Shown here one piece after another: positions 8,445 through 39,480 of a DNA stretch of 64,000 nt. The notes beneath the pieces were generated by a model. The model worked only from the letters and a program-made list of their open reading frames with translations, was not told the DNA's origin and did no database searches. A program made the position numbers and the translations under genes. Position 1 is the stretch's first letter. Every line of letters begins with the position of its first letter. The stretch spans positions 1,178,001 to 1,242,000 of the forward strand of contig NZ_CP019331.1 of assembly GCF_002163835.1 (NCBI RefSeq), read 5' to 3'. Source of the DNA: Polaribacter sp. SA4-10. GTDB lineage: Bacteria > Bacteroidota > Bacteroidia > Flavobacteriales > Flavobacteriaceae.

Positions 8445-9557
8445 TTGGATAATACACCAATTATTTATCAGCCTTTAAAGAATGCAAAACGCATTAAAAT
8501 TCATATCCCTTATGAACTAAAGGAACTACGCGATGTTTTTAAGAAAATTAACACCACTTTTTGGCATCCCAATCAAAAATTATGGTCTATTATGTATACA
8601 GAAGAAAACGTGGCACTGATAAAAAATATTTTTGGTAAAAACTATAAAACAGTAAATGAGGTAACGCCTACCCCTATTGAAAAAAGACCGCTTAACCAAT
8701 ATGCAATCGAACAGCTTTTTAGATTGGAAAAAGCGTTAGTTTTAAAAAAGTATAGTGCCTCGAGTGTGCGAACCTACAAGAATATGTTTAGTGTTTTTTT
8801 AACAAAATTTTCTAACAAAGATATTAGCATAATAACCAAAGAGGAAATAGAGGGTTTTGTTTATGAATTAATTACAAAAAATAAAATTGGAGAGAGTTAT
8901 CAAAATCAACTTATAAACGCTATTAAAGCGTATTATGAACACGTTTTAAAACTACCTAGAGAGTATTATGAAATACAACGTCCAAAAAAAGCGGTAAGCA
9001 TACCAAACGTATTAAGTAAAGAAGAAGTTTTAAAAATTATACAGCATCCTAAAAACATTAAGCACAAAGCCATTTTATGGACTATTTATAGTGCTGGACT
9101 TCGAATTTCTGAGGTCTTAAATTTGAGAATTATAGATATTCATTCTAAAGAAGGATACTTATTTGTAAAGGATAGTAAAGGAAAAAAAGATCGAAAAACT
9201 ATTTTATCAAATCATTTAGTAGTGTTATTACGTACCTATTTTAAGAAAGAAAAACCATCTTACTGGTTGTTTGAAGGACAAACAGGCGGAAAATACAGTA
9301 CTACAAGTGTACGCGCTATTTTTAGAAAAGCAGTAGCAGAAACGAACTCTAATCCTTGGGCAACGGTGCATACCTTGCGTCATTCGTTTGCTACACATTG
9401 TATAGAAAACAATGTAAATTTAAGGTATTTACAGAATATGCTAGGGCATAACTCTCCGAAAACTACAGAAATCTATACCAAAACAATTCATATTAATAAT
9501 AAAAATATCGAAAGTCCTTTGGACAATATGCTGAAAAACGTTAATTTTAAAACATAA
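8445..9557 (+). CDS. Tyrosine recombinase heading the gene-cassette array (Xer-like, non-IntI)
   Basis: 370 residues. All catalytic residues are present: Arg220 (AGLRISEVL), Lys245/247 (DSKGKKDR), His309 and Arg312 (HTLRHSFATH), His335 (LGHNSPKTT) and Tyr344 (EIYTKT). A SAM-like core-binding domain occupies about 85-180, and an extra N-terminal domain (about 1-65, including FWHPNQKLWSI) precedes it. The region between the catalytic Lys and HxxR is of normal XerD length, so the additional helix that marks classical IntI is absent. No ATG or GTG is available in frame after the upstream stop at 8424, so TTG at 8445 is the likely start. It is transcribed toward the cassettes and ends 40 bp before the first cassette boundary. 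Inferred role: excision and integration of cassettes at the palindromic sites. Confidence 0.85.
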   Translation: MDNTPIIYQPLKNAKRIKIHIPYELKELRDVFKKINTTFWHPNQKLWSIMYTEENVALIKNIFGKNYKTVNEVTPTPIEKRPLNQYAIEQLFRLEKALVLKKYSASSVRTYKNMFSVFLTKFSNKDISIITKEEIEGFVYELITKNKIGESYQNQLINAIKAYYEHVLKLPREYYEIQRPKKAVSIPNVLSKEEVLKIIQHPKNIKHKAILWTIYSAGLRISEVLNLRIIDIHSKEGYLFVKDSKGKKDRKTILSNHLVVLLRTYFKKEKPSYWLFEGQTGGKYSTTSVRAIFRKAVAETNSNPWATVHTLRHSFATHCIENNVNLRYLQNMLGHNSPKTTEIYTKTIHINNKNIESPLDNMLKNVNFKT

Positions 9558-9606
9558 AACATATATGTGATATATCAACAATACGCATATACAATTGTTA
9601 GATGCC
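9558..9606 (+). other. attI-like primary insertion site
   Basis: Between the recombinase stop and the first cassette, the sequence ATACAATTGTTAG keeps the form of the 3' end of the array palindromes (TATACxCAAxxCGTT) but has no 5' palindromic partner upstream. The cassette's private box GTTAGATGCC is at 9597-9606. A simple site at this position is what an attI would look like; this is an inference. Confidence 0.5.
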
Positions 9607-9710
9607 ATTGATAAAATATATTCCGTAAAAATTTTAGGATGGTAAAACGTGGGTTGTGGCAAAGCAAAAACCAATGTTAGCGTGGGGACATCGCTTATTT
9701 TGGGGTCGCA

Positions 9711-9762
9711 CATTTTTAAAATTTAGTTTTAAAAAAAGATAAAAAACTAAATTTAAAAAATG
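9711..9762. repeat. AT-rich inverted repeat in cassette 1
   Basis: Arms at about 9711-9730 and 9741-9762 (core TTTAGTTTT / AAAACTAAA, extended by A/T runs) are nearly perfectly complementary around a 10-nt loop. It would form a strong hairpin on either strand, though without the GC-rich stem of a classical terminator. Confidence 0.6.
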
Positions 9763-9928
9763 CACTTGTGGCACTTCCGACTGGACAACGGTGTTTTCGA
9801 GCCAGATTGCGCAGTGGCGGAATACAAAATCGGACAACTAAGCGACATAGCTTTGCGGAATTTTTTCTTCTTTGCAAAATCTGAGTTAAATCCAGCGAAA
9901 TAAATGCGTACTTTTAACTTTGAGAAAT

Positions 9929-10003
9929 ATTTCTCACTGTGATGTAGAAAATCATTTCTCACTCGGGCGCGAAAAATCATTTCTCACTCGGACGCAGAAA
10001 GAT
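9929..10003. repeat. Three tandem 25-bp repeats in cassette 1
   Basis: ATTTCTCACT occurs at 9929-9938, 9954-9963 and 9979-9988, exactly 25 bp apart. The following 15 bp are also similar (copies 2 and 3 share TCGGxCGCxxAAA). The first copy overlaps a perfect palindrome GAGAAATATTTCTC (9923-9936). The phasing suggests protein-binding iterons or slippage-derived repeats. Three units without distinct spacers do not make a CRISPR. Confidence 0.65.
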
Positions 10004-10006
10004 AAC

Positions 10007-10212
10007 GGCATCTAACAATGTATAAAAAAAATAGGGTGGCTTAGTTTAAATTCAATGGTTTGGGCGCACAGGTAAGACCGCCGAATTTTTACAAATTCGA
10101 CTTTTGCTGAATAAAAAAGGTAAAAGTAAAATTTGTAAAAATCAGCTCGAGACTTAGCCAAAGGGCGTTTTGCGCTTGTTCCCTACTTTTCTTATACCTA
10201 ACGTTGTGCAAC
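10007..10212 (+). repeat. attC-like site 1 (206 bp)
   Basis: Starts with GGCATCTAAC and ends with GTTGTGCAAC (10203-10212). The arms pair as GTATAA...TAGGG with CCCTA...TTATAC. The centre contains a perfect 13-bp inverted repeat ATTTTTACAAATT (10085-10097) / AATTTGTAAAAAT (10130-10142). It is longer than the other sites but has the same plan: private box, outer stem, inner hairpin, next cassette's private box. Confidence 0.75.
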
Positions 10213-10214
10213 AT

Positions 10215-10730
10215 ATGAAAATGAAGTTTACAATTAACATATTATTTCTATTCATCTTTACGTTTTCATTTTCACAAAATGAAATTACGTATGAAAAAAC
10301 TCTTTCTGATATTAAAAGCTCTTCAAAAATTTTAACTACTACATTAATAATTCCAGATGTTGAATTTTACATTGGAATATTTACGACAGATTGGATAGTT
10401 GAGGATTTAACAGAAGAACAATGTGGAGACATTAAAACTGATTCGTTAAAGAACTCAAAAATCATTAAAATTCTTGAATCAAAAAAACTGTTAGAAAAGT
10501 TATATGTAGAAATGGAAAACAATAATTATGAAAGTATAAACTCATCTGAAAAATTTGAATGGAAAGACGCAAAACTTGTAATTAATATGAATTTCTCGGA
10601 CGAATCTGATGTATTCAATCAAGTATATATCCCAATAATGAATAAAAAGAAAGCGAAAGAATTGATCAAATCAATTAGTCCAATATTTGAATCTGACTTT
10701 TGTTTTAAAAAATTAAAAAGGAAATTATAA
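10215..10730 (+). CDS. Exported protein of unknown function (cassette 2, first gene)
   Basis: 171 residues. The open frame extends upstream to 10170, but that part lies inside the preceding attC-like site. The ATG at 10215, just after the cassette boundary, gives a clean signal peptide (MKMKFTINILFLFIFTFSFSQ) and is chosen as the start. The mature protein is acidic/lysine-rich and contains VEMENNNYESINSSEKFEW, with no domain I recognise. It is followed 20 bp later by a lipoprotein gene in the same cassette, so the two are probably co-expressed and may act together in the periplasm. Confidence 0.65.
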   Translation: MKMKFTINILFLFIFTFSFSQNEITYEKTLSDIKSSSKILTTTLIIPDVEFYIGIFTTDWIVEDLTEEQCGDIKTDSLKNSKIIKILESKKLLEKLYVEMENNNYESINSSEKFEWKDAKLVINMNFSDESDVFNQVYIPIMNKKKAKELIKSISPIFESDFCFKKLKRKL

Positions 10731-10750
10731 ATACGTAGTAAAACATAATC

Positions 10751-11218
10751 ATGAAAACGAAAATAATCAAAATATTGACTTTTTTATTTACAATTATTTT
10801 GTTTTTAAGTTGCAATGGAATAAAAGAGAAAAAGAATATTTATGGAAACTGGTATTCAAGTAATTCTGAAAAACTTGAAGACAATACAATTGACTATACA
10901 GAAGTTTTTATAAAAAATGACACTGTTCATATTTGCTCTGAATATATATTAAGAATGTTACCGAGAAAAATGATTTTAAAAAACGACTCTTTATTTTTTC
11001 ACTCAAAAACCGACTCAAATTTTGTTGGAAATATTTTAAAGCAATCAAAAAATAGTTTTGACTTAGGAATAGATAGTAAAAATAAAAGAACCTATTATAA
11101 ATTGGAAAGTGTTAAGAATCTTGAAAGTCTAATCAATGGAGAGATAACGGAAAAAGATTATCAAGATGAATTTATAAAACGAATGAATATTAGATATAAT
11201 AAATTGAAAAATGAATAA
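10751..11218 (+). CDS. Small lipoprotein of unknown function (cassette 2, second gene)
   Basis: 155 residues with a type II signal (FTIILFLSCNG; Cys21 is the probable lipidation site). The sequence after it (NIYGNWYSSNS..., VFIKNDTVHIC, LKNDSLFFHSK) resembles the beta-rich 'lipocalin-like' small lipoproteins found widely in Bacteroidota, but no specific family can be assigned. The stop is only 6 bp before the cassette's 3' box, the tight packing typical of gene cassettes. Confidence 0.65.
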   Translation: MKTKIIKILTFLFTIILFLSCNGIKEKKNIYGNWYSSNSEKLEDNTIDYTEVFIKNDTVHICSEYILRMLPRKMILKNDSLFFHSKTDSNFVGNILKQSKNSFDLGIDSKNKRTYYKLESVKNLESLINGEITEKDYQDEFIKRMNIRYNKLKNE

Positions 11219-11224
11219 AAATAC

Positions 11225-11362
11225 GTTGCACAACACCGTGTATAATTCATTGCTAGTACTCGCCTACTTACGAAAATCCTCGCGGATTTTCTATTCAGTT
11301 TGTATTTAATAAATTAGGTGTTTAATCAACGCAAAAAATCATACACAAAACCGTTAGCTACA
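11225..11362 (+). repeat. attC-like site 2 (138 bp)
   Basis: GTTGCACAAC (11225-11234), the exact reverse complement of this cassette's left box, is followed by ACCGTGTATAATTCATTGC. The central hairpin is GAAAATCC-TCGC-GGATTTTC (11272-11291). The right arm CATACACAAAACC leads into GTTAGCTACA (11353-11362), the box of the next cassette. It is a good reference copy for the family. Confidence 0.85.
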
Positions 11363-11427
11363 ATTCCACTCATTTCCAAAAATGAGTAATTAATAATAGA
11401 TAAATTAAAAAAAAGCTATTCTGAAAA

Positions 11428-11721
11428 GTGAAAAAGATACATTTAATATTATATTTTTATAAGTCATTTGCATTAGCAAGTATCATAATATCTGGATTTT
11501 TATGCTATTTAATAAATCTTTGGGAAAAAAGTGGCTTCATCATTTCATTACTAACTTTCTTTAAAATAATTACTTTAGGAATTATTTATTATTTCATAAA
11601 TGACTCACATAATAACGAATTTGTTTTTTACAAGAACCTTGGAATCTCTAACAAATCCTTATGGATTTCAACTATTAGTTTTGACTTTATGATTTATTTA
11701 ATAATGATAATATTAACTTAA
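11428..11721 (+). CDS. Small membrane protein, probable ABC permease partner (cassette 3)
   Basis: 97 residues starting at GTG, with three hydrophobic segments (about 12-30, 36-56, 78-96). Its stop codon directly abuts the ATG of an ABC ATPase, so it is presumably the membrane half of a minimal transporter. It is much shorter than a normal ABC-2 permease (six segments), so it may oligomerise or be a regulator. No family recognised. Confidence 0.6.
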   Translation: MKKIHLILYFYKSFALASIIISGFLCYLINLWEKSGFIISLLTFFKIITLGIIYYFINDSHNNEFVFYKNLGISNKSLWISTISFDFMIYLIMIILT

Positions 11722-12381
11722 ATGAAGAAAAATAAATTAGAAATTGATAGTGTTTTATTTGAAGTTAAAAAGAATCAAATATTAAACAATGTATACTTAA
11801 AACTTGAGGCAGGAACTATTACAGCTTTATTAGGAAGAAATGGTTCGGGAAAATCCTCTTTATTCAAAATAATTTTAGGAATTATCAAACCAAGAGAAAA
11901 ATCATTACGGATTAACGACGTTTCTTTTTTCAATAAAAATCCGTCAAATAAAGATATCTTATATTTATCTCAAAACAATTTTATTCCAAAAAAACTGAAA
12001 ATAAAAACAGTATTCAATTTTTTTAAATTAGATTTTTTTGATTTTGAAGAATCTTTTCCCGAATTTAAAAACATATCAAAAAATTGTTTAGGAACATTAT
12101 CGGGAGGAGAAAGAAGAATTATTGAAACATATCTCATTTTAAAATCGGAATCAAAATTTGCAATACTTGATGAGCCCTTTTCTCAAATTATGCCTGTTCA
12201 CGTTCAAAAAATCAAGAATTTAATTATTCAATCTAAAGAAAAAAAAGGAATATTAATTTCAGACCATTTATATGAACATATCAAGGATATAAGTGATGAA
12301 ATTTACTTGGTAGCTAATAAAAAGGTTTATTTAACAAAAGAAAAAACTGATTTAATTAGGTTAGGCTACTTAAGAAAATAA
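11722..12381 (+). CDS. ABC transporter ATP-binding protein (cassette 3)
   Basis: 219 residues. Walker A GRNGSGKSS, Q-loop (YLSQNNF), signature LSGGERR, Walker B FAILDEPF and a switch-type His (SDHLYEH) are all present, so the ATPase should be active. The sequence is short and Lys-rich, ending soon after the H-loop. It is paired with the 97-residue membrane protein immediately upstream and lies 2 bp from the cassette's 3' box. The substrate is unknown; resistance or export of a small toxic molecule would suit a mobile cassette, but this is speculation. Confidence 0.85.
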   Translation: MKKNKLEIDSVLFEVKKNQILNNVYLKLEAGTITALLGRNGSGKSSLFKIILGIIKPREKSLRINDVSFFNKNPSNKDILYLSQNNFIPKKLKIKTVFNFFKLDFFDFEESFPEFKNISKNCLGTLSGGERRIIETYLILKSESKFAILDEPFSQIMPVHVQKIKNLIIQSKEKKGILISDHLYEHIKDISDEIYLVANKKVYLTKEKTDLIRLGYLRK

Positions 12382-12382
12382 C

Positions 12383-12521
12383 TGTAGCTAACACCGTATA
12401 AAAATAATGCTTAGTTTAGTGCTTAATCAAGAGTCCGTGCGCTTTTGTTTCGTCTGATTTTCCTTCGGAAAATCCTCGCACACAAAACCGCACTATTCTT
12501 ATACACAAACCGTTGTAAAAC
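12383..12521 (+). repeat. attC-like site 3 (139 bp)
   Basis: TGTAGCTAAC (12383-12392) is the exact reverse complement of the left box at 11353-11362. It is followed by ACCGTATAA, an inner hairpin GATTTTCC-TTC-GGAAAATC (12456-12474), the right arm TTATACACAAACC and the next box GTTGTAAAAC (12512-12521). The inner stem has the opposite A/T orientation to site 2 yet still pairs perfectly. Confidence 0.85.
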
Positions 12522-12558
12522 ATTAAAACGTTGAATAAACGTACTTACGTTAGCAGTA
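12522..12558 (+). repeat. Relic 3' end of a second attC-like subtype
   Basis: ATAAACGTACTTAC followed by GTTAGCAGTA (about 12549-12558) is nearly the same as the 3' end of site 9 (ATAAACGTGTTTAC-GTTAGCAACA). No matching 3' box TACTGCTAAC is found downstream, so this is likely a leftover from a lost cassette. Confidence 0.5.
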
Positions 12559-12626
12559 ATTAAAAAAATGAAATTTATTAAAACATAATATTTTATTCCT
12601 TAAATTTGTTTTTTAAATAATTTTTT

Positions 12627-13862
12627 ATGAAAAAAATCTTACTACTTTTAGTTATTATATTGAGCTCATGCGAAAAAAATATTACTAACATATATGAATA
12701 TGAAGAACCTTTAGGAACAGGTTTGTACATGTATGGTACCACATATGAGGGAGGAGCAAATGGTCTTGGAACTATTTATAGAGTTGATCAAAATGGTCAA
12801 AACATTCAGAAACTATTTGATTTCACAACCACAACTGGAGGTAATCCCACGGCAGGTTTAACATTAGCTGGTAACGGTAAACTTTACGGATTTACAAACT
12901 CTGATGGACAAATTGTTAATGCCGGAGCAGTATTTGCCACAGGTTCTTTTTATGAATTTGATCCTCTAACAAATGATCTGCAAGTAATACAATACTTCGA
13001 TGATTTATCTCCGACAGGGTACTTGCACAATATCAGCCCATTACTTCACACTAATGGTTTATTGTATTCCACTAGTGAAATAACAGGTATGGGTGATGAT
13101 GGAAAAATTTGGTCTTATGATATAAATACGAGTACAATTTCAATTTTAGACACTTTAGATGCCAATATATATGGCCCAAATAAAAGTAAATTAATGGAGG
13201 CATCTGATGCTCATATATACTTCACAACGGCTAGTGGCTCAAAAAACGGTTATGGTGCAATAATTAGATTTAACACTGCTACAGACTCGCTTGAGGTAGT
13301 TTATGCATCGCCTGGAGGTTTCCCCAACAGTAATCAATTTGAAGGGGCTAGCAATAATACATTATTTGAAGCTTCAGATGGCTACCTTTATGGTGCTTCA
13401 AAATTAGGTGGAGCTAATAATAAAGGAAACCTTTTTAAAATTGATAAAAATGGTAATAACTATCAAAACCTTTGGAGTTTTGAATGGATTGTAGCAATTG
13501 AAGGTTGGGATCCACAAGGTGGTTTTATAGAAAAAAATGGTTTCTTATATTCAGCTACTGCACAACACAATCAACAAGATGCCAATTCAGGTGCGTTTTA
13601 TAAGGTAGAGCTGGCAACAGGAAACCTTACATTTACTAACTTCCTAGATTTTGAAGGGTATAGACCAATAGGAACATTTATAGAATCATCAAACGGAAGG
13701 TTTTATATAACCTGTTCTGGTGGTACTATTACCGATGGTAGCATTGTTGAATATAATCCCTTAAATGGCAATATAACTCAAAGACATGATTTTAATATAG
13801 GGAATAATGGAGTAAACCCACTGCGAAACTCTCTATGCCTTGTAGACTTAGGAGCACTTTAG
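12627..13862 (+). CDS. Lipoprotein with TIGR03803-type (GLOEO_VERRUCO) repeats (cassette 4)
   Basis: 411 residues with a lipoprotein signal (VIILSSCEK). The body is built of about six repeats of the form G-x-LYG-x-T-x-x-GG-x-x-x-x-GT-x-Y-R-x-D (for example MYGTTYEGGANGLGTIYRVD and LYGASKLGGANNKGNLFKID), the pattern of TIGR03803, which probably folds as a beta-propeller. Such proteins are surface or periplasmic with unknown ligands. A -7-like box TAAATTTG lies at 12601-12608, 18 bp before the start, so the cassette may carry its own promoter. Confidence 0.75.
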   Translation: MKKILLLLVIILSSCEKNITNIYEYEEPLGTGLYMYGTTYEGGANGLGTIYRVDQNGQNIQKLFDFTTTTGGNPTAGLTLAGNGKLYGFTNSDGQIVNAGAVFATGSFYEFDPLTNDLQVIQYFDDLSPTGYLHNISPLLHTNGLLYSTSEITGMGDDGKIWSYDINTSTISILDTLDANIYGPNKSKLMEASDAHIYFTTASGSKNGYGAIIRFNTATDSLEVVYASPGGFPNSNQFEGASNNTLFEASDGYLYGASKLGGANNKGNLFKIDKNGNNYQNLWSFEWIVAIEGWDPQGGFIEKNGFLYSATAQHNQQDANSGAFYKVELATGNLTFTNFLDFEGYRPIGTFIESSNGRFYITCSGGTITDGSIVEYNPLNGNITQRHDFNIGNNGVNPLRNSLCLVDLGAL

Positions 13863-13959
13863 GGCGAAAGTAGTGTTTATAAGAGATTGAGAGTGAGAGT
13901 GAAAAACTAATGATAACAAAGAACTGAGTGTAATATTCGTCAAAATAAAATTAATAAAT

Positions 13960-14508
13960 ATGAAATCAATTAAAATTACACTTATTTTATTAATCATTAC
14001 AACAGTTGCAAATGCTCAGTTAAAAGTTGGAGGAAAACTATCATACGGTTCGGAAATAGAAAGTTTAGGTATTGGTGCTAAAGCAATTTATGAATTAAAT
14101 GAAAACTTTTCTTTGTCAGGAGAATTAAATTACTTTTTTGGAATTACTACAACAACGACTAACAGTTTTATGGGTCAAAATTTCAGCAGTTCTGAAGTTG
14201 ATACAGGTTTGGTAACATTAAATACAGATTTACATTATAATATAAATATATCAAACTCAAATGACTTAAGATTTTATGGTATAGGTGGTTTGAACTTTTC
14301 GTTTTACGGAACAGATGTAACAGCACATAATAGCATCACTGGTTCGACAAGTGCTGACAATAATGAAACTTTTATTGGTTTAAATTTAGGTTTTGGAGGA
14401 GGATTTTCTATAACAGATAAATTAGACTTAATATCTGAACTTAAATATATAATTAGTGATTTAAACCAAATAGTTTTTAGCGCAGGAGCAGTTTATAGCT
14501 TAAATTAA
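13960..14508 (+). CDS. Outer-membrane beta-barrel protein (cassette 4)
   Basis: 182 residues with a signal peptide (ITLILLIITTVANAQ). Eight or so alternating amphipathic strands (VGGKLSYGSEIESLGIGAKAIYEL, FSLSGELNYFFG, FIGLNLGFGGGFSI) fit an OmpA/OprB-type 8-stranded porin-like barrel of the outer-membrane beta-barrel family. It is preceded by 97 bp of non-coding sequence after the lipoprotein gene and ends 17 bp before the cassette 3' box GTTTTACAAC. Confidence 0.7.
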   Translation: MKSIKITLILLIITTVANAQLKVGGKLSYGSEIESLGIGAKAIYELNENFSLSGELNYFFGITTTTTNSFMGQNFSSSEVDTGLVTLNTDLHYNINISNSNDLRFYGIGGLNFSFYGTDVTAHNSITGSTSADNNETFIGLNLGFGGGFSITDKLDLISELKYIISDLNQIVFSAGAVYSLN

Positions 14509-14525
14509 AACTACGAATTGAAAAC

Positions 14526-14542
14526 GTTTTACAACACAGTGT
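14526..14542 (+). repeat. 5' end of attC-like site 4 (interrupted)
   Basis: GTTTTACAAC (14526-14535) is the exact reverse complement of the box at 12512-12521. After ACAACACAGTGT the expected TATAATTC is replaced by the end of a large integrated element. The remainder of the site resumes at 30309. Joining 14526-14530, 30309-30428 and 31656-31670 gives 140 bp, the length of intact sites. Confidence 0.8.
14531..14542. repeat. Left attachment repeat of the integrative element
   Basis: ACAACACAGTGT, matching ACAACACGGTGT at 30309-30320. The core is also part of the conserved attC-like sequence (for example ACAACACCGTGT in site 2), so the element appears to have recombined within that sequence. 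Confidence 0.65.
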
Positions 14543-14603
14543 TGTGTAAGTAATACCCCTAAAGCCTTTATTTTATTGATTAAATAAGAATTATTTAAAA
14601 AAA

Positions 14604-14622
14604 GGTACAACATAGGTACAAC
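14604..14622 (+). repeat. Left arm-type integrase-binding repeats (candidate)
   Basis: GGTACAACATAGGTACAAC contains two copies of GGTACAAC. An almost identical sequence occurs inside the other end of the element (30176-30195) in the same orientation. This arrangement is expected of arm sites for the element's integrase. Confidence 0.55.
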
Positions 14623-14672
14623 TTTTTAAACTATAGAATTGTGAAGAAAATATAGTGATCTATAGCCACAAA

Positions 14673-14704
14673 AAAACCGCTTCTAAATTAATAGAAACGG
14701 TTTT
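14673..14704 (-). terminator. Rho-independent terminator after the DUF6266 gene
   Basis: Stem AAAACCG-C-TTCTA / TAGAA-A-CGGTTTT with a 6-nt loop. On the minus strand the stem is followed by a run of T. It lies 26 bp beyond the stop of the DUF6266 gene, and also works symmetrically on the plus strand. Confidence 0.75.
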
Positions 14705-14729
14705 CAATATGTATTTAAACTTAAAGTTA

Positions 14730-15371
14730 TTAAGCAGCCGTACCAGAGCCTAAATACACACTATTTGATACTTGTGTACCATCAGCAGAAACAAACGCCA
14801 TAAATAGCTCTACTGTGTCTCCTACATAAGTATTTGGTATTGTAACCACTTGCGAACCTATAATTCTATCAGCACCATCCAAAATAGAAATTGATTCTTT
14901 CTTACTTGGGTTGTAAACCAACACCATCGCTTTGTCTGTTGCATTAGCGTTACCTTCTGCCGAGTTATCTCCCCAATCAAAACTTACTTGTCCTGCGGTT
15001 GCTAAATCGGTTGTACCATTTAACACTCCAGATAAAGGACCTCTACTCAATAAAGCATTTGCATAATCTACTGTAAAGTTTGGTGCAACACCACCTACTG
15101 CATTATTTAGCACGTAAGACATAGCAGCATTAAATTCTGTTTTCTTGGTCGCAAATGACTTATAACCGATTTTAATAAAGCTTTTAGTCGCCTGTAAATA
15201 CTCCAATGTAATAGTAAATTTATTACGCTGATTTACTTGTCCCTCTGTTCGAGGATTTGCCACGCTCGATGGCTTAATTCTGATGTAGTCAATACCTTTC
15301 CAACTACCACCAATTACGTTACCTACTTTTCCTGATAACCCTCCTAAAATACCCTGTGCAATTTTACCCAT
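14730..15371 (-). CDS. DUF6266 family protein
   Basis: 213 residues with the characteristic start MGKIAQGILGGLSGKVGNVI then WKGIDYIRIKPSSVANPRTEGQ, typical of DUF6266 in Bacteroidota. The remainder is beta-rich, with Ig-like or fibre-like character (VSFDWGDNS, AMVLVYNPSKKESI, VELFMAFVSADG). It has no signal peptide. It is the last gene before the left end of the integrative element, separated from the other cargo by about 1.1 kb of non-coding DNA, and has its own terminator. Function unknown; a structural or phage-derived role has been suspected for such families but is not shown here. Confidence 0.75.
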   Translation of the reverse strand: MGKIAQGILGGLSGKVGNVIGGSWKGIDYIRIKPSSVANPRTEGQVNQRNKFTITLEYLQATKSFIKIGYKSFATKKTEFNAAMSYVLNNAVGGVAPNFTVDYANALLSRGPLSGVLNGTTDLATAGQVSFDWGDNSAEGNANATDKAMVLVYNPSKKESISILDGADRIIGSQVVTIPNTYVGDTVELFMAFVSADGTQVSNSVYLGSGTAA

Positions 15372-31640: not shown

Positions 31641-31655
31641 AATACAAACTAAAGA

Positions 31656-32627: not shown

Positions 32628-32773
32628 TTTAAACTGCTTGATAATGAGTGGTAAGCCGCTGGATCCCCTTTATTTAATTCGTTTTTGTGTAACACGTCCA
32701 TTTTTGATGCATCTAAATGTTCAAACGCCATAATGGGGTTTAAATTTAATATAAATCAAAAAAAAATAAAGGT

Positions 32774-33334
32774 ATGTTAATTACAATTTTAGTTATAGTT
32801 GGAGTGCTTGTAATGCTCAACGTTATAGTAAAAAGAGATTTGCATTTTGAAGAAGAGGTGTTGATAAATAAAGGCATTGATGAATCTTGGGAAGTTCTTG
32901 GGAACCAATTTACGGAGGCTCATTTGTGGTCTACAAATTTTAAATCCTCTAGGCCAGGAGGAAAACCTAAATTGAATGGTCTTGATTATCTCCACCGTGA
33001 AACCATGACTGAAAAGGGTGAGAATTTTCAAGAGTTAGATGAATTCGACCCAGATAATTACAAATTGTCTTATCATGTATCAAAAGGAGTTCCAGGAATT
33101 GCGAAAAGTGCGCTGGGTGATTGGAGTTTAAGTAAATTGAGTAATGAACAAACTAGATTGAATGTTCACTTTATATTGGAAACAAAAGGTCTTTTAGGGT
33201 TTGTAATGAGTCCAATTATCTCCAGTAAGATTAGTAACGCATCGACTGAAATTACAGAAGAACTCAAATACTATCTAGAAAATGGCAAACCACATCTTAG
33301 GAAATTAGAATCAAATAATAATAATAATAACTAA
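32774..33334 (+). CDS. SRPBCC-family protein with N-terminal membrane anchor (cassette 5)
   Basis: 186 residues. An N-terminal hydrophobic segment (MLITILVIVGVLVMLNVIV) precedes a START/polyketide-cyclase-like fold: HFEEEVLINKGIDESWEVLG at the beginning and a C-terminal helix (KISNASTEITEELKYYLENG). A poly-Asn tail ends the protein because of an AAT repeat just before the stop. Such domains bind hydrophobic ligands. It lies 6 bp before a haloalkane-dehalogenase-like gene, so both probably act on related small molecules. Confidence 0.7.
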   Translation: MLITILVIVGVLVMLNVIVKRDLHFEEEVLINKGIDESWEVLGNQFTEAHLWSTNFKSSRPGGKPKLNGLDYLHRETMTEKGENFQELDEFDPDNYKLSYHVSKGVPGIAKSALGDWSLSKLSNEQTRLNVHFILETKGLLGFVMSPIISSKISNASTEITEELKYYLENGKPHLRKLESNNNNNN

Positions 33335-33340
33335 GAAAAA

Positions 33341-34225
33341 ATGGAAAAGAATATATCAGCAGAATTCCCTTTCGAATCAAAGTATTTGGAGGTTAATGGA
33401 AGTAAAATACATTATATCGAAGAAGGTGAAGGAGATCCAATATTATTTCTACATGGCAATCCAGCATCGAACTATTTATGGCGGAATATTATTCCTTACG
33501 TCGGCAAACAAGCTAGATGTATCGCTCCTGACTTAATAGGAATGGGGAAATCTAGCAAGCCTGATATAGACTATGGTTTTCAAGATTCATATGACTATTT
33601 GGATTCATTTATTAAGCAACTCGGCTTAAAAAACGTTACACTTATACTACATGATTGGGGTTCAGGTTTAGGATTTCATTATGCAAATACACATCAGGAA
33701 AACATCAAAGCTATTGTCTTTATGGAGGCCATGTATGATGCACCTTCTATATCTGACATGCCATTTTCTCTAAAAATAGCACTGAAAATGATTCGTAATC
33801 CGATATTTGGAAAATTAATGGTTTTGAGGGCTAATTTATTCATAAAAAAAATGCTGCCCGATACCATCTCACGGAAACTAAACAAGGATGAAAAGAATTA
33901 CTATTCAGCACCTTACCCTAATGCTAAGAGTAGAAAGCCATTATTAGCATGGGCAATGAATGTACCATTTAAAGATGGCAAAACTACCAGCGCAACCGCA
34001 GCTATTAAATCTTGGGCAAAATGGTTGTCAAAAAGTGATATCCCAAAACTATGCTTCTATGCTTCGCCAGGAATAATTATGAAACAAAAAGATATTGAGG
34101 TGATAAAAAACACATTTAAAAATACAGAGATAGTGTATTTGGGCCCCGGACTCCATTTTATACAAGAAGATTATCCGCATGAAATAGGAAATGCAATTTC
34201 TAAATGGTACGACAAAATTAAATAA
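33341..34225 (+). CDS. Haloalkane dehalogenase-like alpha/beta hydrolase (cassette 5)
   Basis: 294 residues. Oxyanion motif LHGNPASNYLWRNIIPYV, nucleophile Asp105 in ILHDWGSGLGFHYA, and base His272 in GPGLHFIQEDYPHEIG are typical of subfamily II haloalkane dehalogenases (DhaA/LinB type), which hydrolyse carbon-halogen bonds. The expected halide-stabilising Asn in the first block and Trp next to the nucleophile (Trp106) are present. The catalytic acid is probably the Glu in FMEAMYDAP. No signal peptide, so cytoplasmic. It ends 25 bp before the cassette's 3' box. Real substrates may be other than halogenated compounds. Confidence 0.82.
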   Translation: MEKNISAEFPFESKYLEVNGSKIHYIEEGEGDPILFLHGNPASNYLWRNIIPYVGKQARCIAPDLIGMGKSSKPDIDYGFQDSYDYLDSFIKQLGLKNVTLILHDWGSGLGFHYANTHQENIKAIVFMEAMYDAPSISDMPFSLKIALKMIRNPIFGKLMVLRANLFIKKMLPDTISRKLNKDEKNYYSAPYPNAKSRKPLLAWAMNVPFKDGKTTSATAAIKSWAKWLSKSDIPKLCFYASPGIIMKQKDIEVIKNTFKNTEIVYLGPGLHFIQEDYPHEIGNAISKWYDKIK

Positions 34226-34250
34226 CATAATTTTCAAGAAACATAAAAAC

Positions 34251-34386
34251 TAAACACAACAATGTATAAAAGCAATAGCGGTTCTTGTGCAAACTTGAAC
34301 CGTTTTTGCGTTTAATTAAGTATCTTATAACATGAAAAGTAAGTGCTTTAAATCCGCTACTGCTCTTATACTAAACGTTCTACGCA
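34251..34386 (+). repeat. attC-like site 5 (136 bp)
   Basis: TAAACACAAC (34251-34260), then AATGTATAAAAGCAATAGCGG pairing with CCGCTACTGCTCTTATAC, inner stem CGGTTC (34279-34284) / GAACCG (34297-34302), and the next box GTTCTACGCA (34377-34386). Divergent in sequence from sites 2-8 but with the same form and length. Confidence 0.8.
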
Positions 34387-34388
34387 AT

Positions 34389-35435
34389 TTGAAAAAAACG
34401 ACATTCTACATATTAACAATTTTGCTTTTGACAAGTTCGGGCGCATTCTCGCAAGATGATTTGTCACGAAAAAATTTGAATGAAAATATTGGCTCGACTT
34501 ATCTAACTGAATATAAACAAGCCGAATACTATTTCAACCTCGTACCTTTAGAAAACTCAAAATATAATTTTCATTTCAGATATATAAAGTCTGGACAAAT
34601 CATTGATTTGTATAGAGAAAATGACGAAAATTTTTCTGGTCAAATAACCAATTTTATACAAGAAACAAAAGAAGTCAAAACAGATTACGGATACAATTCA
34701 GCGCCGATTAATTATGTATTTGATAAAATAAAAATTGCAGATACAAACGCAACCAAACTTGGACAATATATATTAAATACAAAATCAAATGAAATCCCTA
34801 CCGATAGTTTAATACCAAATTGGAATTTCAATTGGTTAGACTGTGGAGCAATAAAATTTAAGTACAAGATAAAAAATAGAATCTCAAGTGGAACTTACAC
34901 TTGTCCTCAAAATCAGAACGACAGTATTAAATATGTGACTGGAATTAAAAACCTGAAAGACACAATATCGAATATTCTAGAATTGAAAACAACATTTGAT
35001 GATTTCACAAATAAACTACCTAAAGGAGCATCTTACAAAATTGATGGTTGGATAACAATGCTTAAGCTATCCGAAAAACAACTTGAATGGCGTGAAAAGA
35101 ACAAACCAATGAGAGATTATTTAAAAACCATAAAAGATACAATTGACAATTATTTGGAACTTGAATTAAATAGACTAATACCAAATTCTGCGGATTTAGA
35201 TTGTTTTGATGATTATCGTCTGACTTTTAATAAAAACGGACAATTAAAAAATATGAAAGTTGATATGGGATTTTGGGAACGGACATTTGACAAAGATTAT
35301 AAAAAATGTAGACGGATTCTAAAAAAAGCTTTTAGAGAAATAAGAGTTGATTTTGTTGACCCTAAATATGTTTTCTATCGAAATTTAAGTTTTGGCGGAA
35401 AAGAAATTTATATAACTGATCCAACATTATATTGA
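34389..35435 (+). CDS. Exported protein of unknown function (cassette 6)
   Basis: 348 residues from the TTG at 34389. The open frame reaches back to an ATG at 34332, but those 19 codons lie inside attC-like site 5. Starting at 34389, just after the cassette boundary, gives a standard signal peptide (KKTTFYILTILLLTSSGAFS, cleavage before QDDL). The mature part has no domain I know; two Cys (DCGAIKF, YTCPQN) could form a disulphide. The C-terminal region (LTFNKNGQLKNMKVDMGFWE, KKCRRILKKAFREIRVDFV-like) resembles TonB-C-like or energy-transducing C-termini only vaguely. The stop is 8 bp before the 3' box. Confidence 0.65.
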   Translation: MKKTTFYILTILLLTSSGAFSQDDLSRKNLNENIGSTYLTEYKQAEYYFNLVPLENSKYNFHFRYIKSGQIIDLYRENDENFSGQITNFIQETKEVKTDYGYNSAPINYVFDKIKIADTNATKLGQYILNTKSNEIPTDSLIPNWNFNWLDCGAIKFKYKIKNRISSGTYTCPQNQNDSIKYVTGIKNLKDTISNILELKTTFDDFTNKLPKGASYKIDGWITMLKLSEKQLEWREKNKPMRDYLKTIKDTIDNYLELELNRLIPNSADLDCFDDYRLTFNKNGQLKNMKVDMGFWERTFDKDYKKCRRILKKAFREIRVDFVDPKYVFYRNLSFGGKEIYITDPTLY

Positions 35436-35443
35436 GAAAAAAC

Positions 35444-35581
35444 TGCGTAGAACACCGTGTATAATTCATTGCTAGTTAGTGTTTACTTGCGAAAGTCCTA
35501 GCGGACTTTCTATCTGTGTTTTATTTGCTAACTTTAGTGCTTAAACGCGCAACGAGATCATACACAATTCCGTTGTGCAAC
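35444..35581 (+). repeat. attC-like site 6 (138 bp)
   Basis: TGCGTAGAAC (35444-35453), exact reverse complement of 34377-34386; ACCGTGTATAATTCATTGC; inner hairpin GAAAGTCC-TAGC-GGACTTTC (35491-35510); TCATACACAATTCC; then GTTGTGCAAC (35572-35581). Compared with site 2 the hairpin shows an A-T to G-C change on both arms. Confidence 0.85.
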
Positions 35582-35635
35582 ATAACCAAAAAACTCAAGA
35601 CTGAATAAAAACGATTATTAATATTAAAACTAAAA

Positions 35636-36055
35636 ATGAATTTTAAATACTCTATTTGTCATCCTGAAAAAGAGGATATTGAATATAAGAATAACCCAAT
35701 CTCTGAAAAAGAAGTTTTGGAAATTTCTAAAAATTATGCTTGGATTGAAAAACTGAAATTCTCTGATACTTTAAATCCTGAAAGTGTGTGTTATAGTCCG
35801 TCTTTAGATTTTACAAATATTAAGAACGGAAAAAGTTTTTGTCTAACTGCTGGTTATGATAAAAATGGAAAGTTAGAGTTTTCATTGTGGTACAATAGAC
35901 CGAAAAAAGTAAAAGTATTATTTGGTTTATTAGGAGAAAAAGAAAAAATGGTTGTTGATGATTTTTGGTCATTAAACTTTGAAGAGTCAATGAAATATCT
36001 TGAATATTTTGTAAACGGAAATTACTCAACAATTGAAAAACTATACAGAAAATAA
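35636..36055 (+). CDS. Hypothetical cytoplasmic protein (cassette 7)
   Basis: 139 residues with no signal peptide or membrane segment. It contains SPSLDFTNIKNGKSFCLTAG, FSLWYNRPKKVKVLFGLLGE and VVDDFWSLNFEESMKYLEYF; the alternation of acidic and aromatic residues recalls small immunity-like proteins, but no family is recognised. It is the only gene in its cassette, with its stop 1 bp before the 3' box, the classical one-gene cassette layout. Confidence 0.65.
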   Translation: MNFKYSICHPEKEDIEYKNNPISEKEVLEISKNYAWIEKLKFSDTLNPESVCYSPSLDFTNIKNGKSFCLTAGYDKNGKLEFSLWYNRPKKVKVLFGLLGEKEKMVVDDFWSLNFEESMKYLEYFVNGNYSTIEKLYRK

Positions 36056-36056
36056 C

Positions 36057-36180
36057 GTTGCCCAACACCGTATAAACTTTATTGCTGGCTTCTTGTGTAC
36101 TTACGAAAGTCCTCGCGGACTTTCTTGGTCAGTAATTATTTACTAACTTTACTGCTAAATCAACGCAACAAAGCTTATAC
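36057..36180 (+). repeat. Body of attC-like site 7 (interrupted by IS110)
   Basis: GTTGCCCAAC (36057-36066) matches the reverse complement of 35572-35581 at 9 of 10 positions. It is followed by ACCGTATAAACTTTATTGC, hairpin GAAAGTCC-TCGC-GGACTTTC (36105-36124) and the right arm GCTTATAC, where IS110 copy B is inserted. With the last 15 bp at 37441-37455 the site totals 139 bp. Confidence 0.82.
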
Positions 36181-36220
36181 GTATTCCAAGGTCAAATACT
36201 AATTAAATAAAATCTTTTTT

Positions 36221-37213
36221 TTAAGCTACAAATTTTTGTAATACGACATAAGGAGTTCCTCTTTTTACTACTGCAAAAGCTCTTGATAAAATCTTATTTC
36301 TAACATTATTGATAGCAACCATTTTTGGTTTTCCTTCTGAATTTTTTTTATTATAATATTGTTTTAATTCTTGGTCGCATTGTATCGCACTAACACTGGC
36401 TAGTGTTAACAGTGTTTTCATTTTCCTATCTCCTATGTGATGAATTCTATTTTTTCGATGTATGCTAGTTCCAGAACTGTGCTCAAAAGGAGCTACACCA
36501 CAATAACTTGAAAACTGGCGCCAACTATCAAATCGTTTAAAGTTACTCGTGTGATATAACAGCTGACAAGAAAGCACTAATCCAACGCCTTTTAAGGTAT
36601 TTAAAAGCTCATAATTCTTTTGTAATGATTCATCCTTACTCATTAGGTTTTTTATATGGTTCTCTAATGCTATAATTTGTTTTGTAAGATAATGAATGGT
36701 TTTTTTGATAATGTTACAGCAATCATCAGTTGATGGACTGCTAAGCAAGGTTTGCATTTCTTTGAGACTACTCATTTTACCCGTGCGGTCTCTTACCAAC
36801 TGATCTCTAAAGGATAACAGGCGTCCTAATTCTTGAATATCTTGTTCTTTTGGACTACTTAAAACAAGTTCTTCTTTGTAAAGCCAAGCATATCTAGCAA
36901 TCATAGCTGAATCAAGCTTATCTGTTTTTCCTCTAACAACACCTGACGAGCGGTTAATTGCTAAAGGGCTTTCTTCAAAGTAATCTAAATCATTTTCTGA
37001 CAGATAAACACTAAGGTTTGTAGAGTAATGTCCTGTATTCTCAAAACAGAAAAAATAAACCTGTTCTTTTAAGTACGTTTCTGTCCAAGACAAAAGTGCT
37101 TTGTACCCTTTAGGCGTATTTGAAAATACGCGGTGTACCACTCTGTTGTGAATATGTGCATCTAAGGTTAATTTAGATACATCAATACCAATAACATCTG
37201 AATAATTTTTCAT
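36221..37213 (-). CDS. IS110-family DEDD transposase, copy B
   Basis: 330 residues from the ATG at 37213 (MKNYSDVIGIDVSKLT), matching copy A in length and start; the upstream 17 codons of the open frame are rejected. DEDD residues lie in GIDVSK, FCFENTGHYS and KTDKLDSAMIARYAW. The Tnp_20 region has LNTLKGVGLVLSCQLLYHTS and SYCGVAPFEHSSGTSIH. Intact. The C-terminal GTPYVVLQKFVA is shared with copy A. Confidence 0.92.
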   Translation of the reverse strand: MKNYSDVIGIDVSKLTLDAHIHNRVVHRVFSNTPKGYKALLSWTETYLKEQVYFFCFENTGHYSTNLSVYLSENDLDYFEESPLAINRSSGVVRGKTDKLDSAMIARYAWLYKEELVLSSPKEQDIQELGRLLSFRDQLVRDRTGKMSSLKEMQTLLSSPSTDDCCNIIKKTIHYLTKQIIALENHIKNLMSKDESLQKNYELLNTLKGVGLVLSCQLLYHTSNFKRFDSWRQFSSYCGVAPFEHSSGTSIHRKNRIHHIGDRKMKTLLTLASVSAIQCDQELKQYYNKKNSEGKPKMVAINNVRNKILSRAFAVVKRGTPYVVLQKFVA

Positions 37214-37269
37214 ATTTTTAAATATTATTTCTTGTAAATAAGAAATTGTTAATAAATGTTGCAATGACT

Positions 37270-37410
37270 ATCACCTTTAATAGAAAGTAATTCCTGGTAT
37301 TCCAAATGGTCCTAAAGCAACCTAAGAAGAACAAGAGGACTGATACGTGTAAAGGAACTGATATTCAAAACAACGTTTTAGTTCTCCTCTTGTTTCTTAG
37401 TAAATAGAAT
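37270..37410 (-). ncRNA. Predicted bridge (seek) RNA of IS110 copy B
   Basis: Minus-strand RNA with stem CTAAGAA...CAAGAGGA / TCCTCTTG...TTCTTAG. The loop contains AACGTTGTT (opposite 37369-37377), complementary to this copy's own right flank AACAACGTT (37440-37448), and TACACGTA (opposite 37344-37351), matching the left junction TATAC|GTA with one mismatch. The donor-type loop has TTGGAATAC (opposite 37297-37305), complementary to the element end. The right-flank guide differs from copy A exactly where the flanks differ. Confidence 0.65.
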
Positions 37411-37440
37411 AACTACTTTATTGATGAGGTAAAGTAAAGA

Positions 37441-37455
37441 ACAACGTTGGTGTTC
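37441..37455 (+). repeat. 3' end of attC-like site 7 with cassette-8 box
   Basis: ACAAC followed by GTTGGTGTTC (37446-37455). The partner box AAACACCAAC at 38002-38011 matches its reverse complement at 9 of 10 positions. Confidence 0.75.
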
Positions 37456-37545
37456 ATTACTCACTCGAAATCAAAAAAACCTGAATTAATGTTTTTTGAA
37501 TTTTAAAATAACTGAAAAAGGAAAACTTAATTTAATAAAAACAAT

Positions 37546-37986
37546 ATGAAAATATTCAAGGTCTATAAAATTATAACCTATTTTTTACAACTATTTTTTA
37601 TTGTTGGAATATTCTTAACAGTTAAAGATGTTTATGAAGGAATTATAGTTCTTGATTACAAGAGTATTCTACTTGTAATAACTTTGATTGTCCTTTTTTT
37701 ATCAGTAACCTTCTATAATACTAAATCGCATAAATTTCACAACAATAATTTAGGAATATTAAACAAAAGAGAAAGGAAGAAAATTAAGATTTCTACACTA
37801 ATTAATATCTTAATTGGAATATCCATAACAATATTGTTTTTAGTAATTTTGACTGTATATCGGATTAAAGATTTATCATTTTCTGAAATTTCTAGAACAT
37901 TATTAAGTTTGGTTTTATTTCTTTATGGAATACTAAAAACGACTCATTCAATTAAAACATTTAAGATACTAAAAACAATAAAATGA
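37546..37986 (+). CDS. Four-helix membrane protein of unknown function (cassette 8)
   Basis: 146 residues with four hydrophobic segments (about 12-30, 36-54, 84-104, 112-130) joined by a basic loop (NKRERKKIKIST). No family recognised. It is the only gene of its cassette, 90 bp after the left box and 15 bp before the right box. It starts at an ATG after an A-rich stretch, usual in this genome. Confidence 0.65.
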   Translation: MKIFKVYKIITYFLQLFFIVGIFLTVKDVYEGIIVLDYKSILLVITLIVLFLSVTFYNTKSHKFHNNNLGILNKRERKKIKISTLINILIGISITILFLVILTVYRIKDLSFSEISRTLLSLVLFLYGILKTTHSIKTFKILKTIK

Positions 37987-38001
37987 ATTGAATAAAAAAC
38001 G

Positions 38002-38139
38002 AAACACCAACACCGTGCATAATTAATTGCTTTGTTTTAGCTTACTTACGAAAATCCTCGCGGATTTTCTACTTGGCATTTTATTTATTAATTTAGTGCT
38101 TGCGAACGCAACTAATCTTGTACAAACACGTTGCCACCA
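38002..38139 (+). repeat. attC-like site 8 (138 bp)
   Basis: AAACACCAAC, ACCGTGCATAATTAATTGC, hairpin GAAAATCC-TCGC-GGATTTTC (38050-38069), TTGTACAAACAC, then box GTTGCCACCA (38130-38139). Uninterrupted. Confidence 0.85.
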
Positions 38140-38161
38140 ATTGGAGAAAAAGTGTATATAA

Positions 38162-38788
38162 ATGAACAATCCTGAAATTTTTAAAGGAACCACTGTAAAC
38201 GAAAGACTCTATTTATCTGGAAAGTTGGATGAGTTTGACAATGCAATTAAAAAAGATAACAGGAATACTGCATACAGAATCTTAAGAGAACTTAAAGTTG
38301 ACGAACCTTCGATAATTTTAATTGTTGGTCATACAAGAGAAAGTTTACAATATCCAAATGCTTGGGATTTTCCGAATGAAAACCATAACAATCTGAAAAA
38401 TGAGAATAATGCAACTTTGGAATACTCAAACCTAAATGAAATAGGAAAGGGAGCGCCAATTAGCGGAAATTGTAAACTGAATAAAGGAACGAAAAATATT
38501 GTAATCGGAAATAATTGTGGTGGACCAGCTTTATGGAATGAATCTGGACTTAAATTAGCAATTCCTATTTGGGAAAAATCGTTTTTTAAAGGAACATTTC
38601 AGAGAATTGGAATATTAGATTTGGAAAAGCAGACTTTGACTAAATATAAAAAGAAGTATCGAGTTTTAAATTTAATATCATTTAAGAACAACCTGATTAA
38701 AGGAATTGACAGCCCAATTCATAAAACTAAACATATCGAATTTGATTATGAAAAGGAACAGATTGAAAAAATTATCGGAATAAAATAA
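38162..38788 (+). CDS. Hypothetical protein (cassette 9)
   Basis: 208 residues, no signal peptide. The N-terminal 45 residues (FKGTTVNERLYLSGKLDEFD, AYRILRELKVDE) look like a small helical domain seen at the start of several flavobacterial hypothetical proteins. The remainder (IILIVGHTRESLQYPNAWDF, NIVIGNNCGGPALWNESGLK) contains a Gly/Asn-rich patch without a known motif. Stop 1 bp before the cassette 3' box TGGTGGCAAC, again a single-gene cassette. Confidence 0.65.
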   Translation: MNNPEIFKGTTVNERLYLSGKLDEFDNAIKKDNRNTAYRILRELKVDEPSIILIVGHTRESLQYPNAWDFPNENHNNLKNENNATLEYSNLNEIGKGAPISGNCKLNKGTKNIVIGNNCGGPALWNESGLKLAIPIWEKSFFKGTFQRIGILDLEKQTLTKYKKKYRVLNLISFKNNLIKGIDSPIHKTKHIEFDYEKEQIEKIIGIK

Positions 38789-38789
38789 C

Positions 38790-38996
38790 TGGTGGCAACA
38801 CCGTTTATAATTTATTGTTAGTTTTAGCAAATTTACGAAAATCCTCGCGGATTTTGAACTGCCCCCAAAAAGTTAGACACTATTTTAGGACATCAATAAA
38901 ACAGGTATTTTCACTTATAGGTTTCCTCTTTCAAAAAAGGTAACTTGGCTAACTACGTTTATAAAACATTACATAAACGTGTTTACGTTAGCAACA
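38790..38996 (+). repeat. attC-like site 9 (interrupted, variant arms)
   Basis: TGGTGGCAAC (38790-38799), exact reverse complement of 38130-38139. The left arm ACCGTTTAT pairs with ATAAACGTG near the right end, so both arms have changed together from the usual TGTATAA/TTATACA. The inner hairpin GAAAATCC-TCGC-GGATTTT (38837-38855) is cut by an IS3-like fragment. It ends in GTTAGCAACA (38987-38996). Confidence 0.7.
38860..38940. mobile_element. Terminal fragment of an IS3-like insertion sequence
   Basis: TGCCCCCAAAAAGTTAGACA (38860-38879) is a typical terminal inverted repeat of IS3-family (IS150-like) elements. About 60 bp of following sequence has no homologous partner end or transposase here, so only a stub remains inside site 9. 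The exact inner limit is uncertain. Confidence 0.55.
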
Positions 38997-39017
38997 AGTT
39001 GATATAAAATTAATTAA

Positions 39018-39403
39018 ATGGCTTTAGAAACAAATACATCTGAATTAATAAAAGGAATGCATCAAAGTTGAACAACGGAGAATATGTGTTTTCTAATGTA
39101 AAGCATTTAACTAAAAATGATTGTAAGAATACAATTTGTGAGTTCAAAGAAAAGGAAAGAACAACTATTGTGATTCATAAAAGAAAGGCAGACGAATTAA
39201 ATTTAAGTTATGAATATATTGCCTCCTGGATTACCTTAATGATTCACTCATCTCTTGATGCCATGGGTTTGACTGCAATATTTTCAACAGAATTAGCAAA
39301 AAATGATATAAGTTGCAATGTTATTGCAGGATATTACAATGACCTTATTTTAATTGATAAAAAAGATTCAGATAAAGCAATTAGAGTTTTAACAATGTTG
39401 TGA
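39018..39403 (+). pseudogene. ACT_7 (DUF2241-like) domain protein with a frameshift (cassette 10)
   Basis: The first part reads from the ATG at 39018 as MALETNTSELIKGMH and then meets a stop at 39069. The second part, in another frame from about 39065, reads K-LNNGEYVFSNVKHL to the stop at 39403, with YEYIASWITLMIHSSLDAMG and AKNDISCNVIAGYYND. Together they match the ACT_7 family, in which L-x-x-M-x-P-x-L-x-x-G-x-YVF is continuous; one missing base after the CAT codon near 39063 explains the break. The longer 3' fragment could be made from the TTG at 39068 but would lack the first strand. Full-length family members are small ligand-binding regulators. Confidence 0.7.
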
Positions 39404-39422
39404 GAAAATTACAAATAAAACC

Positions 39423-39480
39423 TGTTGCTAACACTTCATAAAATCCCATTAACGAATTTTTAAAATTCATAAACGAGTCT
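39423..39480 (+). repeat. attC-like site 10, degenerate right end of the array
   Basis: TGTTGCTAAC (39423-39432), exact reverse complement of 38987-38996, followed by ACTTCATAAAAT. The expected central hairpin and 3' arm are not recognisable, so the array appears to end or to be truncated here. Confidence 0.6.

Follow-up and report, generated by a model that had tools for sequence, protein, structure and literature searches.

The window analysed here comprises 64,000 nucleotides of Polaribacter sp. SA4-10 (NZ_CP019331.1, part of a 3,435,762-bp contig), and the feature positions given below refer to it. It holds a gene-cassette array headed by a gene for a Xer-like tyrosine recombinase of 370 residues (8445-9557, plus strand), assigned by domain matches and motif spacing. 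The gene is followed by eleven imperfect palindromes on the same strand, termed sites A to K, which extend to about 39432 and separate ten cassettes, all in one orientation and with GTT at the boundaries. The original prediction of ten same-orientation cassettes split by large palindromes behind a recombinase is confirmed; the array features proved larger than first noted, and comparison of recombinase platforms added an attI-like site (9560-9609, plus strand), whose predicted exchange point is the GTT at 9597-9599, 39 bp past the recombinase stop codon. The complete sites B (11224-11363), C (12382-12522), F (34250-34387), G (35443-35582) and I (38001-38140) measure 138-141 bp with the variable arms counted in, and sites A (10006-10213) and J (38789-38997) are longer. 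Site E (30303-30443) is split near its right end by an IS110 element, with its R' (GTT) at 31661, and site H (left part 36056-36198) is split in the same way, with its R' GTT at 37446 past the element. Only the left half is present for site D (14525-14535), whose right half was not found, and for site K (39422-39432), the last site recognised. The site ends in the window were set by eye, in part steered by the address pairing described below.

The GTT at 9597 opens cassette 1 (9598-10203), which terminates in site A, a longer site than most, and contains no convincing gene although no other cassette is closer to attI. Cassette 2 (10204-11353) carries a pair of small genes with no known function (the first to 10730, the second 10751-11218), and cassette 3 (11354-12512) a small protein (11428-11721) and an ABC ATPase (11722-12381). 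Cassette 4 (12513-14535) encodes a protein of unknown function (12627-13862) and a beta-barrel protein (13960-14508), and has the left half of site D at its end. Cassette 5 (31662-34377) encodes a sigma-70 region 2 protein, an unknown protein and an alpha/beta hydrolase, and cassette 6 (34378-35572) a single protein of unknown function. Unknown proteins are also encoded by cassette 7 (35573-37446; gene 35636-36055), which terminates in the split site H, cassette 8 (37447-38130; 37546-37986) and cassette 9 (38131-38987; 38162-38788), which terminates in site J. Cassette 10 (38988-39432) encodes an ACT-domain protein (39068-39403) and ends in the left half of site K. All ten cassettes lie on the plus strand.

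Inspection of the sites revealed a common architecture, starting with C-N7-AAC and ending with GTT-N7-A. Within a site the two N7 arms pair poorly (20 of 63 positions in the window, by eye). The seven nucleotides after a GTT pair instead with the seven before the AAC of the next downstream site, at 68 of 70 positions over the ten cassettes, also scored by eye. Non-own pairings in the window match at a mean of 2.19 of 7 positions (100 combinations), and none of 200,000 permutations equalled the own-cassette score; the best non-own pairing reaches 7 because two window sites share an address. Therefore, each cassette holds both halves of its own address, and a site is whole only in the circular form. 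For integron cassettes, the section of PMC2727003 on this point states that R''/R' pairing can reach 9-11 nt.

As the ends of the window sites had been placed by eye and guided in part by pairing, an automated test was preferred. A profile built from the 150 best of 389 covariance-model matches was applied to 1.394 Mb of sequence in 50 stretches, which came from 29 genomes of the window's genus and were picked for holding sites or recombinases, and placed 849 sites, with neighbouring pairs testable in 25 of the 29 genomes. A pair was taken to pass with at least six of seven address positions matched. By this measure 664 of 732 neighbouring pairs obeyed the pairing, compared with 51 of 707 for the two arms of the same site, 38 of 688 in the reverse direction, and a mean of 77 (maximum 99) in within-array shuffles. 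When each distinct address pair was counted only once, 220 of 286 obeyed it.

The first GTT of the array behaves as an attI site would. In nine of nine platforms examined by inspection, such a GTT follows the recombinase gene and its seven bases pair 7/7 with a downstream site. The paired site is the nearest one detected in seven platforms, the second in G000b (the second platform of the window's genome), where the left arm of the first site cannot be read, and in the window it is site A, which was placed by hand. An automated search found a match at 6-7 of 7 positions for 19 of 27 recombinases, placing attI 27-167 nt 3' of the gene. The sequence 5' of this GTT is alike in many platforms, with ATATAAC or ATATAAAC immediately before it. 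Three genomes carry two platform copies each. The 303 nt leading up to the GTT are 100% identical between the copies of the window's genome, 98% between those of G001 and 99% between those of G034, one of whose recombinases has its reading frame shortened to 297 codons. The 300 nt past the GTT are unrelated in all three pairs (25-35% identity). Identity that ends at the GTT is the picture expected of different cassettes inserted at one point. The attI site beside the integrase gene, which characterises an integron, is thus seen by inspection, by the automated search and in the breakpoint pairs.

Cassettes are also shared between species. Each species was represented by one genome, and the comparison was made between species in place of the strain-level one first suggested. 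Among 645 cassettes that obey the pairing, 27 inter-species pairs are at least 90% identical from end to end, with some cassettes belonging to more than one pair. In 27 of 27 the surrounding sequence is unrelated, with a median identity of 0.31 upstream and 0.32 downstream, and the next address differs in every one of them. Matching ends between unrelated flanks are what movement of whole cassettes between attachment sites leaves behind. The chromosomal-integron logic proposed at the outset is therefore borne out by address pairing, GTT breakpoints and whole cassettes common to different species. In 537 of the 645 cassettes the array strand carries the longest reading frame. Ninety cassette proteins, picked by script to be mutually dissimilar with at most eight per genome, match 66 Pfam families, of which 63 occur in one protein each. 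The matches listed include methylases, Fic, barstar and acetyltransferases, and PF00144 (beta-lactamase family) in three proteins.

Folding was predicted with DNA parameters for 200 sites sampled from 640 sites reconstituted in the circle form. The bottom strand was the more stable in 200 of 200 (mean -26.1 versus -21.0 kcal/mol) and in 196 of 200 in the array form. For three single array-form sites, the fold was not clearly above that of shuffled sequence (z of -0.3 to -1.2). The source of the asymmetry can be seen in the sequence. At two positions of the L box the top strand has A.C and the bottom strand G.T, in 622 and 625 of 654 alignable sites (773 in total). In 562 of 640 sites the pair at the stem end is likewise C/A on top but G.T on the bottom strand. 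The consensus L box has equal length on both arms, with the two G.T wobbles on the bottom strand, and the spacer between R and L box is 3 nt on one side and 6 nt on the other in 622 of 654 sites. In the account given in PMC2727003, classical attC sites are recombined as the bottom strand only, with strand choice made mainly through extrahelical bases. The sites do not follow the attC consensus, as the original prediction held. GTTRRRY fits 66 of 812 sites, RYYYAAC 66 of 803, and both together 6 of 773, in a count that required the AAC/GTT core (present in 358 of 396 and 360 of 396 sites).

The recombinase consists of an N-terminal domain (residues 1-80), a core-binding domain (PF13495) and a catalytic domain (PF00589), with no IntI insertion. 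Against the integron-integrase model TIGR02249 it scored 177 bits as a protein and 114.7 bits in the genome search, both below the cut-off of 265. The assignment as a Xer-like enzyme outside IntI, made earlier from the window alone, is upheld by the missing insertion and by this score. The distance from GKGxKxR to HxLRH is 64-66 in the recombinases at the heads of arrays (array heads) that have both motifs, and 107 in 19 of the 21 IntI loci over the cut-off, the remaining two having no match to a motif. With a slightly altered motif the distance is 64-65 in 27 of 27 recombinases, indicating that the additional domain of IntI is absent; the insertion also appears as a gap against IntI4 (2a3v). 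Residues R220, K245, K248, H309, R312, H335 and Y344, which we take to be the catalytic positions of this enzyme family, show no variation among the 40 sequences aligned. The N-terminal domain matches the HARP domain (PF07443) at 23.7 bits, under the gathering cut-off of 25, and 3 of 14 N-terminal domains match PF07443 at E<=1; structure-specific DNA-binding domains of the HARP and XPB-UvsW type are named among its closest comparisons.

In the tree, the 18 IntI rows form a group of their own (support 100/100) and 24 of the 26 array-head rows form another (98/91). These results bear on the possibility that the array belongs to an ordinary integron lineage, descended from an IntI that lost its additional domain while its sites drifted from the consensus. 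A clade uniting array heads and IntI was not rejected by the approximately unbiased test (p-AU 0.287), and the best matches in the PDB by sequence include IntI4 beside XerA-type proteins. In addition, the AAC/GTT core, the attI beside the gene and the bottom-strand folding are common to attC, and the part of PMC8138268 that treats an integron-like subgroup describes the insertion as not fully conserved there. Against such a descent, the two groups separate with high support, the insertion is missing from every array head with both motifs and from all 27 recombinases, and the array heads possess an extra N-terminal domain. We consider this descent unlikely, though it is the most credible of the alternatives.

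The distribution of sites and recombinases was examined with a covariance model (R1) of seven sites, five taken from the window and two from another array in its genome. In the window's genome R1 matched at 69 places (E<=1), and at E<=1e-3 it detected sites in 56 of 58 genomes of the genus. The family sample, taken as Flavobacteriaceae from its named relatives, had sites at E<=1e-4 in 180 of 199 genomes, representing 179 of 198 genera, and a phylum sample had them at the same threshold in 29 of 118 genomes. The covariance-model search suggested in the original prediction thus finds the sites family-wide. The recombinase was detected at E<=1e-70 in 134 of the 199 family genomes, comprising 132 of the 180 with sites and 2 of the 19 without (Fisher p 1e-7). 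Among the 27 recombinases in fetched stretches, 24 have same-strand sites within 5 kb downstream. Eighty named loci of relatives were also fetched, of which 42 were searched; all 38 site matches, from 13 of these loci, lie downstream of the recombinase on the same strand, and the expected proximity of sites to recombinase homologues is therefore found. IntI scored over the TIGR02249 cut-off in 21 of 61 phylum genomes, in none of six sampled genomes of the window's family, and in none of the 58 genus genomes, in a search where the control genomes also stayed below the cut-off.

This association is also what decides whether the sites might be recombined by the host XerC/XerD or another enzyme, with the adjacent recombinase as a passenger. 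Elsewhere, the window's genome does carry two Xer-like genes that are more distant, at 31% and 28% identity, and some site-bearing family genomes give no match to the array-type recombinase at the strict cut-off. The sites, however, lie downstream on the same strand in all 13 named site-bearing loci and in 24 of the 27 fetched platforms, attI where found lies just behind this very gene and marks the platform breakpoints, and recombinase and sites co-occur across genomes. On these association data we rejected the host enzymes, which now appear a very improbable explanation. That the palindromes are repetitive extragenic palindromic (REP)-like repeats or transcription terminators, arranged in arrays by ordinary homologous recombination, would suit numerous intergenic hairpins in many genera, but it was rejected as next to impossible, since such repeats would not be expected to show address pairing, precise breakpoints at GTT or unrelated flanks, and no Rfam family reached its gathering score in 8-40 kb of the window.

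Long arrays and distant relatives extend the picture. A stretch of 100 kb in G013, of the same genus, contains 117 site matches. Recombinase-like matches number 28 in G045 and 34 in G056, many of them short or broken, 20 in G013 and at most nine in any other genus genome; those of G045 and G056 are possibly a repeated element derived from such a recombinase gene. In Arundinibacter roseus, of another family, four consecutive cassettes pair at 7/7 through diverged sites, the fourth site being the longest, and the bottom strand is favoured in 4 of 4 sites. A gene of the single-strand-binding (SSB) family lies there between the recombinase and the attI-like site (L126, 11108-11455), which fits a single-stranded substrate; no SSB match near the recombinase was found in the other named loci scanned. 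Sites also occur on plasmids of Tenacibaculum, Persicobacter and Flagellimonas (5 records). The 405-kb plasmid pPP2 of Persicobacter psychrovividus carries a one-orientation array, with 13 of 13 listed genes in that orientation, mostly hypothetical; the protein WP_338398735.1 occurs twice within 16 kb on this plasmid.

Taken together, we propose that the window contains an integron-type chromosomal cassette array, very probably one in which the Xer-like recombinase moves cassettes at the GTT of attI and at the sites of about 140 bp. The GTT boundaries, the pairing of each cassette with its own address, the platform breakpoints, the cassettes common to different species and the upstream position of the recombinase on the same strand are features of the DNA itself. 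Our best inference is that the adjacent recombinase catalyses the exchange via a folded strand. In the proposed mechanism, the recombinase would insert and excise cassettes at the GTT of attI (9597) and of the sites. The substrate would be the bottom strand of the site, a predicted hairpin presented as a folded single strand, and the two L-box G.T wobbles together with the one at the stem end may mark that strand. Since partner sites do not have the same seven nucleotides beside the GTT, an exchange of the Cre type, which requires the overlaps to match, is unlikely. The N-terminal domain might stand in for the IntI insertion by helping in the recognition of the folded DNA.

Several results weigh against this proposal. 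Recombination is deduced from comparison of sequences, and none was observed. Forty-eight of the 180 site-bearing family genomes have no recombinase at E<=1e-70, and two family genomes have the recombinase with no site. The model found nothing in 29 of the 42 named loci; its training sites came from a single genus, and some of the contigs stop early. Of the 27 fetched recombinases, three have no site within 5 kb downstream and five more, the window's included, have sites with no automatic attI match; the finding that sites are absent upstream of these platforms is a weak test because the upstream sequence was often short. The automated pairing succeeded for just 8 of 19 pairs in the window's own genome (10 of 28 at a looser cut-off), where we infer that several site clusters have decayed, and for 2 of 5 and 0 of 1 pairs in the plasmid stretches of Persicobacter and Tenacibaculum. 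The related sites in the folding test are not independent of each other. Finally, many of the 69 matches in the window's genome lie far from either recombinase copy. The original prediction had named sites scattered without relation to the recombinase as the outcome that would speak against it. The relation does exist across genomes, and the scatter is real within this one.

Further site clusters of the window's genome lie at 59-145 kb, 540-562 kb, 906-912 kb and 963-973 kb. Three of them have no recombinase match nearby, and the one at 540-562 kb adjoins a recombinase fragment. Up to about 912 kb the sites are on the minus strand, apart from those near 787-790 kb. Between 963 kb and 1.89 Mb they are on the plus strand, apart from those at 1145 kb, and the switch may follow the replichores. 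The clusters distant from a recombinase resemble the clusters of attC sites lacking integrases known as CALIN, from which they differ in being off the attC consensus.

Similar to the sedentary chromosomal integrons of Vibrio, the system combines a recombinase gene and adjacent attI with long one-orientation arrays of mostly unknown single genes, the GTT exchange triplet, R''/R' pairing, a favoured bottom strand and cassettes shared between species. It differs in that the recombinase lacks the additional domain of IntI, falls short of the IntI score cut-off and possesses an extra domain at its N-terminus. The address is a variable heptanucleotide in place of RYYY/RRRY, and two wobble pairs are present where no extrahelical bases are evident. 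In addition, the recombinase gene points toward its array, whereas an integron integrase is usually oriented opposite to it. The XerA, XerC, XerD and XerH systems act at dif, a single site per chromosome without cargo, whereas here tens of arrayed sites enclose cassettes. By these comparisons the enzyme stands outside the IntI family, and the best explanation of the locus would be a system that is mechanistically an integron with another kind of integrase.

Three mobile elements, all on the minus strand, interrupt the array. An integrative element foreign to the cassette system (about 14602-30185) encodes an arm-type tyrosine integrase (frame 28911-30236, the listed start lying beyond the repeat) and the type I restriction-modification proteins HsdR, HsdM and HsdS, and is flanked by the 12-nt direct repeat AAGGTACAACAT at 14602 and 30174. 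The two IS110 elements, assigned by family match, occupy 30434-31660 in site E (transposase 30469-31461) and 36185-37445 in site H (transposase 36221-37264). They are inserted in the same orientation near the right end of their sites, and one repeat, 128 nt long, is 73% alike between them. On visual inspection, the non-coding ends of both contain a common hairpin-like stretch, and in its loop the target junction of the respective element recurs, ACACGTT or ACAACGTT, as would be expected of a bridge RNA or seekRNA aimed at cassette sites. IS1111 elements that target attC are described in the relevant part of PMC11187229.

We found no prior report of this cassette system in the literature, in a search of published papers that included few subscription articles and no preprints. 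The portion of PMC9024848 on Bacteroidetes reports one complete integron found by IntegronFinder 2.0, in Salinibacter ruber, beyond an earlier match to an integrase only, and terms the lack of integrons in some clades intriguing; a list in PMC8618304 counts Bacteroidota among the integron-bearing phyla. The present system is widespread, with sites in 180 of 199 genomes, in a family with few integrons reported. It might represent a second class of integron, one that arose independently, is present throughout the Flavobacterium family and extends to other Bacteroidota. Its Xer-type recombinase would have gained a HARP-like, branched-DNA-binding N-terminal domain, rather than the insertion of IntI, for reading folded single-stranded sites, and its superintegrons of more than 100 cassettes would trade genes across species. 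We hold this wider view tentatively, rating its chances at somewhat under even. The system makes it testable whether the IntI insertion is required for folded single-stranded sites or another domain suffices. With 66 Pfam families among 90 proteins, the arrays are a large gene pool, and if the proposed mechanism is true, they would constitute a main route of gene exchange in these bacteria that tools based on IntI and RYYYAAC/GTTRRRY have overlooked.

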